Positions 10,570 through 24,917 of a stretch of DNA of 24,917 nucleotides are shown piece by piece. The stretch comes from a virus. The notes beneath the pieces were generated by a model. It made no database searches and was not told the DNA's origin. It was given only the letters and a program-made list of their open reading frames with translations. Made by a program: the position numbers and the translations under genes. The DNA lies in the IMG/VR virus record IMGVR_UViG_3300011116_000094, positions 1-24,917 of that record; one strand, given 5' to 3'. Each line of letters starts with the position of its first letter. Positions within the stretch are counted from its first letter, which is position 1.

Positions 10570-10841
10570 TCTCGATACCCCCCACCCTTAGCCTTGTACT
10601 GCTTCGCTAGGAGCTGCGCTTTCCTCGCGGACCATTGCCCTGCCGCCGTACCCTGCACCGCCTGAGCCTTGATGCGGTTGAACAGTGCTTTACGCATCCC
10701 CGGCTTCGTGTAGTTGCCCGCAGCATTGACAGACCCACCCTCAGCATACTCATAAAACGCCGTATCGTCACGGCGTTGTTTTCGCTTCGGACCCGGCATC
10801 TTCCGGGGGCTAATAGCCCCCATCCCACGAGAAGCCATCAT
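10566..10841 (-). CDS. Small basic phage protein (91 aa)
   Basis: The start at 10841 (MMASRGMGAISPRK) has AAGGAG seven bases upstream, formed over the stop codon of the preceding gene. The open frame continues upstream to 10892 without a comparable site. The C-terminal two-thirds has the compact pattern AAGNYTKPGMRKALFNRIKA, then GTAAGQWSARKAQLLAKQYK and GGGYRD. I recognise this as a recurrent small domain in aquatic phages; it looks helical and is strongly basic. An AEGGSV segment precedes it, echoing the Gly-Gly-Ser-Val motif of neighbouring genes. Function is unknown. Its neighbours suggest a virion-associated or ejected protein. Confidence 0.7.
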   Translation of the reverse strand: MMASRGMGAISPRKMPGPKRKQRRDDTAFYEYAEGGSVNAAGNYTKPGMRKALFNRIKAQAVQGTAAGQWSARKAQLLAKQYKAKGGGYRD

Positions 10842-24057: not shown

Positions 24058-24066
24058 TGCTATAAT
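24058..24066 (+). promoter_or_regulatory. Extended -10 promoter for the small-gene array
   Basis: TGCTATAAT is a perfect extended -10 element (TG-N-TATAAT). No good -35 is present at the usual distance, which extended -10 promoters can tolerate. A transcript would start near 24073, exactly where a CGTTG/CAACG hairpin (24074-24078 with 24088-24092) begins, so the RNA would have a stem at its 5' end. The palindrome at 24102-24117 lies about 30 bases downstream of this start. Confidence 0.75.
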
Positions 24067-24101: not shown

Positions 24102-24117
24102 CGGGACACTTGTCCCG
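24102..24117. promoter_or_regulatory. Palindrome copy 1, CGGGACA-CT-TGTCCCG
   Basis: A perfect 7-bp palindrome with a two-base centre lies 18 bases before the 129-residue gene and is followed by TTTT. As RNA it can form CGGGAC-ACUU-GUCCCG, a six-bp stem with a four-base loop. It is the first of four related copies. It may be an operator, an attenuator-like terminator, or an mRNA leader hairpin. Confidence 0.85.
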
Positions 24118-24135: not shown

Positions 24136-24525
24136 ATGTCACTCAGCAAAGCCATCATCGCCGCCTTCAACGCAGCCGACCGCGAGGAGGGTGCCATCGC
24201 AGCCGTGAAGGCTGCGGCTGGACGGATGAGCGAGGCCAAGTTCACGGCGCTTGCGCAGGAGTGCGCGAGCTCGCACTACGCGGTTCCGCTCATCACGAAG
24301 AGCACGGGCAAGATCGTGTTCGACTCGAGTGCGGCGAAGTACGAGACCGCACGCAAGCGCGTGCAGAGGCTGGTCGCGGCCCTGTTCCCGAAGTCCACGC
24401 GGGACGAGGTCGAAATTCCGGCCGAGTTGTTGAAGGCGGCGGCAACGCTTGCCAAGCTTGCCAGTGAGTACGAGAGCTCGCGGTCGCTCGCCAGCAAGGC
24501 GCTCGCCGCCGCCTTCAGCAAGTGA
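24136..24525 (+). CDS. Small helical phage protein, first gene of the ribozyme array (129 aa)
   Basis: The ATG at 24136 has a TGGAG site seven bases upstream, so I prefer it to the longer open frame that starts at 23944 inside the G-rich region. The protein is Ala/Lys/Glu-rich and helical: SLSKAIIAAFNAADREEGAI, AAVKAAAGRMSEAKFTALAQ, then STGKIVFDSSAAKYETARKR near 55-75, and EIPAELLKAAATLAKLASEY and SLASKALAAAFSK at the end. No membrane segment, cysteine knuckle or known motif was found. Third codon positions are strongly G/C, unlike the minus-strand genes. I do not recognise the family. A small early protein acting on the host or on gene expression would fit the position. Confidence 0.8.
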   Translation: MSLSKAIIAAFNAADREEGAIAAVKAAAGRMSEAKFTALAQECASSHYAVPLITKSTGKIVFDSSAAKYETARKRVQRLVAALFPKSTRDEVEIPAELLKAAATLAKLASEYESSRSLASKALAAAFSK

Positions 24526-24536
24526 TTGACGGATTT

Positions 24537-24554
24537 CCGGGACAGCTGTCCCGG
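24537..24554. promoter_or_regulatory. Palindrome copy 2, CCGGGACAG/CTGTCCCGG
   Basis: A perfect 18-base palindrome begins 12 bases after the stop of the 129-residue gene and is followed by TTTTG. As RNA it folds as a seven-bp stem (CCGGGAC / GUCCCGG) with loop AGCU and a short U-run, which looks like a weak intrinsic terminator. Its right arm could instead pair with the left arm of palindrome 3 (24622-24628), lengthening the open stem of the ribozyme between them. Confidence 0.88.
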
Positions 24555-24561
24555 TTTTGAA

Positions 24562-24613
24562 GGGCGAAACCCGCGTGAGCGGGTCTAGGCGTGACGCGCC
24601 TACTGATGAGCCC
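24562..24613 (+). ncRNA. Type II hammerhead ribozyme 1
   Basis: All elements of a hammerhead are present. The core is CTGATGA (24603-24609), with GAA at 24566-24568 and the A69-T84 closing pair (24569/24584). Stem III is A-CCCGC (24569-24574) with GCGGG-T (24579-24584), capped by GTGA, a GNRA loop. The cleavage-site base is C24585, so cutting is expected after it. Stem I is TAGGCG (24586-24591) with CGCCTA (24597-24602) and loop TGACG. Stem II is GGGC (24562-24565) with GCCC (24610-24613) and is the open stem, which defines type II. Beyond an A.A mismatch, TTGA/TCAA and GTCCCGG/CCGGGAC can extend stem II. It lies between two small genes and is oriented with them, so it acts in their transcript. 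Activity is inferred from the intact core. Confidence 0.95.
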
Positions 24614-24622
24614 ATCAACTTC

Positions 24623-24638
24623 CGGGACATGTGTCCCG
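24623..24638. promoter_or_regulatory. Palindrome copy 3, CGGGACA-TG-TGTCCCG
   Basis: Identical arms to copies 1 and 2 with a different central dinucleotide, followed by CTTTTT. It starts ten bases after ribozyme 1 and precedes the ribosome-binding site of the 61-residue gene by ten bases. In the cleaved RNA it would be the second hairpin of the leader. Confidence 0.88.
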
Positions 24639-24659
24639 CTTTTTCCTCAGGAGCGTGTG

Positions 24660-24845
24660 ATGTATGACGAAAATTTAGAGACGACCGTGCACGAAATCGC
24701 CACCCGTATGTGGCAGCACCCCCGCGTGCGCGAGGAGTGCGCGAAGTGGGGCATGGACTTCCCCGAGTTCCTCGCAGACCGGATGCAGGTAGCACGTGCT
24801 GCCCGCGATGCGGGTGGCCCGTGGGTCGAAGCGCTGGACTTCTAG
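24660..24845 (+). CDS. Small protein encoded between the two hammerhead ribozymes (61 aa)
   Basis: The ATG at 24660 has AGGAG six bases upstream; the longer in-frame start at 24591 lies inside ribozyme 1 and is rejected. The protein reads MYDENLETTVHEIATRMWQH, then PRVREECAKWGMDFPEFLAD, RMQVARAARDAGGPWVEALD and a final F. It is acidic to neutral, probably two or three helices, with one cysteine and no membrane segment. The stop codon TAG ends on the first G of ribozyme 2 stem II, so gene and ribozyme are packed without spacing. I do not recognise the family. Codon use resembles the preceding small gene, and both look foreign to the structural block. Confidence 0.78.
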   Translation: MYDENLETTVHEIATRMWQHPRVREECAKWGMDFPEFLADRMQVARAARDAGGPWVEALDF

Positions 24846-24896
24846 GGCGAAACCCCCGCAAGGGGGTCTAGGCGTGACGCGCCTACTGATGAGCCC
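24845..24896 (+). ncRNA. Type II hammerhead ribozyme 2
   Basis: A second complete hammerhead. The core is CTGATGA (24886-24892) and GAA (24849-24851). Stem III is A-CCCCC (24852-24857) with GGGGG-T (24862-24867), capped by GCAA, a GNRA loop. The expected cleavage-site base is C24868. Stem I is TAGGCG (24869-24874) with CGCCTA (24880-24885) and loop TGACG. The open stem II is GGGC (24845-24848) with GCCC (24893-24896). It differs from ribozyme 1 at four of 52 bases: a G-C to C-G swap in stem III (24573/24580 versus 24856/24863) and two tetraloop bases that keep GNRA. The GUCA just after stem II (24897-24900) can pair with loop I (UGAC), a possible tertiary contact. Confidence 0.95.
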
Positions 24897-24905
24897 GTCA
24901 ACTTC

Positions 24906-24917
24906 CGGGACACCTGT
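24906..24917. promoter_or_regulatory. Palindrome copy 4, truncated by the window end
   Basis: CGGGACA-CC-TGT is the left arm, centre and start of the right arm of the same palindrome, in the same position relative to ribozyme 2 (TCAACTTC spacer) as copy 3 has to ribozyme 1. It predicts another small gene with its own ribosome-binding site shortly beyond the window. Confidence 0.85.

Follow-up and report, generated by a model that had tools for sequence, protein, structure and literature searches.

Paired type II hammerheads in a small-gene operon of a phage and the layout of hammerheads in phage genomes

Natural type II hammerhead ribozymes were described in 2011 by Perreault et al., who reported a pseudoknot between loop I and the tail, clusters of hammerheads in prophages, with several copies around single genes or short blocks of genes, and the hypothesis that these ribozymes process transcripts (PMC3088659). 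Three tandem hammerhead sets cleaved in vitro, and one in E. coli (PMC3088659). A 2017 review states the same arrangement for small non-conserved open reading frames (ORFs) (PMC6155905). RiboJ, a synthetic insulator with the sTRSV hammerhead, increases mRNA about 2-fold and protein 2-10-fold (PMC6206723).

We analyzed a stretch of 24,917 bases, an IMG/VR virus record (hereafter, the window), at the right end of which two type II hammerheads had been predicted, in a layout for which no described system was known to the predictor. The clusters of Perreault et al. are a clear precedent, and the claim of novelty therefore fails. The window motifs resemble those of the earlier prophage and phage hammerheads in the core, the type II permutation, the placement of several copies around single genes or short blocks and the proposed processing role; the two copies flank genes, in the gene orientation, in a phage genome. 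The differences are in stem I, which in the window ends with U-NNN-G, with a 3-nt loop, compared with the larger pseudoknot loop of the type II consensus, and in the hairpin between the ribozyme and the Shine-Dalgarno sequence. RiboJ shows the same order of hammerhead, hairpin, ribosome-binding site and gene but, unlike the window module, is synthetic and is placed behind a promoter rather than between genes (PMC6206723). By analogy, the window module might work like a natural look-alike of this insulator, matching its layout without being a member. What is added here is the nearly complete filling of gaps by hammerheads in three Streptomyces phages, the proximity of phage hammerheads to stop codons, and the hairpin and Shine-Dalgarno behind each window hammerhead; an incomplete literature search found no paper on such gap filling in Streptomyces phages or on stop-codon contact.

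Structure and conservation of the window hammerheads

Genes for the phage terminase large subunit, portal and major head protein are located on the − strand of the window, whereas the small-gene operon at its right end is on the + strand, divergent from these structural genes. Genes 1 and 2 of the operon are both on the + strand, and the motifs share their orientation, which bears out the predicted phage small-gene context; neither protein has a Pfam or PHROG match. Both hammerheads are also present in L101, a 50-kb contig that is 99.8% identical to the window over 10.8 kb. The features of the window end are as follows.

24061..24066, + strand: candidate -10 element TATAAT with TG before it (extended -10), from the sequence
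24102..24117, + strand: hairpin CGGGACA-NN-TGTCCCG in the gene 1 leader, terminator-like, then TTTT (repeat family D2; terminator-like scan on L101)
24136..24525, + strand: gene 1, 129-aa protein (ORF, IMG/VR homologs)
24537..24554, + strand: hairpin copy 2, between gene 1 and hammerhead 1 (repeat comparison)
24562..24613, + strand: hammerhead 1, type II, with stem II 24562-24565/24610-24613, GAAA 24566-24569, stem III 24569-24584 (GUGA loop), C17 at 24585, stem I 24586-24602 and CUGAUGA 24603-24609 (Rfam, fold, descriptor, covariation, model R1)
24585..24586, + strand: predicted cleavage site 1, after C24585 (from hammerhead numbering)
24614..24617, + strand: AUCA tail, three possible pairs with loop I (UGA) (pairing statistic weak for the subclass)
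24623..24638, + strand: hairpin copy 3, between hammerhead 1 and the gene 2 Shine-Dalgarno (repeat comparison, L101 terminator-like scan)
24649..24653, + strand: AGGAG, Shine-Dalgarno of gene 2 (sequence)
24660..24845, + strand: gene 2, 61-aa protein (ORF), with stop TAG 24843-24845, its G shared with hammerhead 2
24845..24896, + strand: hammerhead 2, type II, with C17 at 24868 and CUGAUGA 24886-24892 (Rfam, fold, model R1)
24868..24869, + strand: predicted cleavage site 2, after C24868 (from hammerhead numbering)
24897..24900, + strand: GUCA tail, four possible Watson-Crick pairs with loop I (UGAC) (pairing comparison)
24906..24917, + strand: hairpin copy 4, truncated at the window end (whole in L101 at 10778-10793)

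The TATAAT is only a lead to the -10 element of the operon promoter; a consensus scan, on the same region of L101, found no -35 element for it.

Both hammerheads lie at the predicted positions and on the predicted strand, with a complete core (C3-U-G-A-N7-G-A, G12-A-A-A, U16.1-H17), loop-closed stems I and III and an open stem II, as befits type II under the criteria of Perreault et al. (PMC3088659). For both copies, unconstrained RNAfold returned the exact hammerhead fold, with the three claimed stems and proper core-adjacent pairs (-25.6 kcal/mol, z -2.8, for copy 1 and -26.4 kcal/mol, z -3.3, for copy 2). The 52-mers show the four differences that had been listed: in stem III, a G-C pair is replaced by C-G, and the loop of this stem changes from GUGA to GCAA, which preserves the GNRA pattern. 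A strict type II descriptor (stem II of at least 4 pairs, stems I and III of at least 5 pairs each) yielded two matches in the window, whereas 10 Mb of Markov sequence with the dinucleotide composition of the window gave no match. The Rfam Hammerhead_II model (RF02276) matched both copies end to end, with the core fully aligned (30.1 and 30.3 bits; E 0.017 and 0.015 in the window), but below its gathering score of 37 bits; the same model gave no matches in 14 control genomes. Because this cut-off is an annotation threshold rather than a structural criterion, we assign the window motifs to the structural class and not to RF02276, and regard it as virtually certain that they are type II hammerhead ribozymes.

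The low Rfam score is, in our reading, explained by stem I, which throughout a short-loop subclass ends with G-U-(3 or 4 nt)-G. In IMG/VR, one narrow hammerhead pattern retrieved 98 stretches, and a stem I pattern retrieved 21. Among 33 distinct short-loop hammerheads (alignment A1), the tested pairs were intact in 429 of 429 cells; these pairs come from stems I and II and, in stem III, from the two positions next to the core, the inner part of stem III having been omitted because its gaps misalign. Two-sided changes were observed in 9 of the 13 tested pairs, the stem I counts being conservative for the rows of the 21-stretch set, which were retrieved with a fixed stem I pattern. The covariation score was 0.584, compared with 0.151 for shuffled alignments (0 of 500 shuffles reached the observed value) and at most 0.066 for slid controls, which are about ninefold below it or lower still. 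The compensatory changes keep all stems, and thus the RNA structure is under selection, as the original prediction had held. With scores below the Rfam threshold, hammerheads of this subclass would escape routine annotation.

Probable processing of the operon RNA

The main role of the window hammerheads is probably processing of the operon RNA, through co-transcriptional cutting into hairpin-ended units. Each hammerhead would fold as RNA polymerase passes and cut itself after C24585 or C24868, the claimed positions, which agree with the hammerhead numbering as predicted sites. The two cuts would yield a 283-nt single-gene RNA for gene 2, separated from its neighbors. Because stems I and III are closed hairpins in the type II topology, both new RNA ends would carry hairpins. 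The upstream product would terminate in the stem III hairpin followed by UC and bear a 2',3'-cyclic phosphate. The downstream product would carry a 5'-hydroxyl and form the stem I hairpin from its very first base, followed by the second hairpin and the Shine-Dalgarno. Each gene would thereby gain a 5' leader that is uniform and resists nucleases, as well as a protected 3' end, such that neighboring small genes could be expressed and degraded independently. Hairpin ends protect RNA in bacteria. Such protection agrees with the expression gains obtained with RiboJ (PMC6206723). Both the cleavage in the cell and the stabilizing or insulating effect are what we infer, with stabilization taken by analogy from other systems.

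The original prediction suggested regular self-processing of the operon transcript. Self-processing is the best reading, but "regular" is an overstatement, given that no hammerheads beyond these two were found in the 50 kb of L101. A pseudoknot between loop I and the 3' tail is common in type II hammerheads but not required, and this contact speeds cleavage. In the window, the tails just outside the 52-mers differ, copy 1 having AUCA and copy 2 GUCA, with three and four possible pairs with loop I (UGAC), respectively; a contact of only 3-4 bp counts against the processing reading. Across all type II hammerheads, loop I-tail pairing stands at 3.50 compared with 2.96 in shuffled controls (0 of 500 shuffles as high); for the short-loop subclass, the statistic is weak (2.49 versus 2.21, with 35 of 2000 shuffles as high). 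Also counting against activity here, 4 of the 18 consensus hammerheads that Perreault et al. assayed were inactive (PMC3088659).

Relatives of the window phage and the repeated hairpin

The window and L101 differ at 19 positions over 10.8 kb. Six of these are in the last 302 nt, all within the ribozyme, tail, hairpin or leader. The only core difference is at N7 of hammerhead 2 (24890), the free position of the hammerhead core, with U in the window and C in L101. Compared with L101, both ribozyme tails of the window carry similar deletions of 3-4 nt (24614-24917), whereas genes 1 and 2 have the same coding sequence in the two contigs; the twin deletions may have arisen by exchange between these repeats or may be an assembly artifact near the end of the contig.

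In a related phage (L102 and L103), gene 1 is 58% identical to that of the window, and the order gene-hammerhead-gene-hammerhead-gene is the same. In L102, stem II is GGAC/GUCC, compared with GGGC/GCCC in the window, and the first copy has different stems I and III. RF02276 did not match the two L102 hammerheads at E 0.01; model R1, which was built partly from them, gives them 62-65 bits, and R1 E-values are no independent evidence for the loci used in building it. A search with R1 found no hammerhead with the distant gene 1 homologs L104-L108, and the element is thus dispensable over longer times. BLAST against GenBank phages found no match for the 917-nt region or the gene 1 protein, and at best chance-level partial matches for the 66-nt ribozyme (E 2 or worse); the nearest GenBank terminases are at most 44% identical to that of the window phage. 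A search of genome contigs for a named host gave a single match, to a 4-kb contig of an alphaproteobacterial MAG.

The middle gene of L102 is unrelated to that of the window and L101, whereas the flanking hammerhead, tail and hairpin are conserved. The hammerhead-hairpin module could, then, be mainly a mobile or recombination-prone repeat, with shared flanks that swap the small gene and cleavage that makes insertion into an operon harmless. The share of the window-L101 differences that falls within the repeats, the parallel loss from both tails and the absence of the element from more distant relatives all fit this possibility. However, selection on the RNA structure, evident from the compensatory changes, speaks against it, and adjacent copies in one phage seldom share stem I (6 of 200) or stem III (11 of 200), unlike what would be expected from recent spread. 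We therefore consider a mainly mobile nature unlikely.

The palindrome (C)CGGGACA-NN-TGTCCCG(G), frequently with a T run behind it, is present in about 10 copies in 9 kb of the window phage (in L101, at 9967, 10403, 10491, 10778, 11168, 11804, 12700, 13120, 13978 and 14794; in the window, at 24102, 24538, 24623 and 24906) and also in L102/L103. The copy at L101:11804 is within an ORF, the one such case, and L104 has its own version, with one extra G-C pair in most copies. The window phage and L102 share the series hammerhead, tail, hairpin, AGGAG, ATG. The hairpin also precedes gene 1, which has no ribozyme there, and hence is not specific to the hammerhead module. Together with the T run, it may act as a transcription terminator as well; a terminator, an attenuator and a mobile palindrome are the candidate readings.

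Layout of hammerheads across phage genomes

The layout analysis covered 257 distinct type II hammerheads of phages, all from the retrieved loci, with ORFs delineated by a simple custom caller. In 93% of these, compared with 43% of random positions, an upstream ORF on the same strand has its stop within -100 to +10 of the ribozyme start, and in 64%, compared with 10%, within -12 to +6. Downstream, a start preceded by a Shine-Dalgarno is found in 96% versus 51%, at a median distance of 25 nt (quartiles 23-28).

Like the window, the Streptomyces phages Daudau, Sentinel and Triumph (Arquatrovirinae) carry type II hammerheads in the gene orientation in the gaps of their small-gene arms. Under the deposited annotation, all 29 Rfam matches in these phages are on the gene strand and none is within a gene. 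In the small-gene arms, a hammerhead is present in 22 of the 24 gaps that are 60 nt or longer, whereas the median of hammerhead-free gaps is -4 nt, that is, the genes overlap (Fisher p 1e-13, 50-nt cut). The ribozymes therefore split the arm into blocks of overlapping genes that are probably coupled in translation. Being related, the three phages do not represent independent events. Their arrays differ from the window in having 9-10 copies per stretch rather than two, a larger loop I, and 25 of 29 copies at or above the Rfam cut-off, which the window copies do not reach. With hammerheads in nearly all long gaps, these phages make the role of phage hammerheads testable, and could directly settle the question of whether ribozymes cut a phage operon into blocks. 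In Triumph, an OCR-like antirestriction gene (L132:6149-6547) adjoins a hammerhead (L132:6563-6625), with the hammerhead upstream, a pairing that echoes the ardA-hammerhead link of Perreault et al. (PMC3088659).

A different locus, L125:3844-6037, contains five hammerheads in 2.2 kb, one behind nearly every small gene; in three of these, the TAG stop shares its G with stem II, and the repeated tail, (AACC)ACGAAAGGCCAC, contains a Shine-Dalgarno.

Altogether, 112 of the 257 hammerheads, including window hammerhead 2 and all five of L125, have the upstream stop no more than 3 nt from their first base, and in 31 the last base of the stop is the first base of stem II. Phage hammerheads might thus serve as translation-linked punctuation, whereby a stop-bound ribosome masks the ribozyme, upstream translation times the cutting into coupled blocks, and the downstream start becomes exposed about 25 nt beyond the ribozyme; taken jointly, these propositions make a tentative and rather improbable reading. 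Given the contact or overlap of the stop codon with stem II, we also considered that the ribozymes are switches, with cleavage gated by terminating ribosomes or by a factor that reads the short loop I-tail contact. A ribosome on such a stop would be expected to cover stem II and GAAA. However, any intergenic element sits near a stop in compact phage genomes, and hammerhead 1 starts 36 nt from the stop of gene 1, so that a switch appears quite improbable.

The flanking hammerheads also might free a gene-length RNA that is circularized, by the reverse ribozyme reaction or an RNA ligase, into a stable circular mRNA. Stem II is the same in both window copies, and likewise in both L102 copies, so that the excised RNA could re-form a hammerhead from its two ends. 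Against this, Perreault et al. sought circular and spliced products and found none (PMC3088659), and stem II compatibility is at chance, in 148 of 200 adjacent pairs compared with 147.7 when shuffled, although this test is low in power because GGC/GCC dominates. Circular mRNA is, in our assessment, highly improbable. Circularization via matching stem II of neighbors had appeared favored without 3-bp stems (17 of 25 versus 8.3) and was rejected once these were included. Compared with processing of the operon RNA, control by ribosomes, exchange of genes and circle formation are all less likely, yet each is testable. That the motifs are inactive or chance hammerhead-like sequences, as their sub-threshold Rfam scores and the inactive consensus hammerheads elsewhere (PMC3088659) might suggest, is hardly credible in view of the empty descriptor search of random sequence, the covariation, the presence of two copies and the conserved order in the related phage.

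In ten phage loci (L005, L011, L037, L053, L055, L058, L062, L073, L082 and L093), two unlike hammerheads lie back to back, about 65 nt from start to start (61-75); double cleavage at such sites would free an RNA of about 60 nt without a gene.
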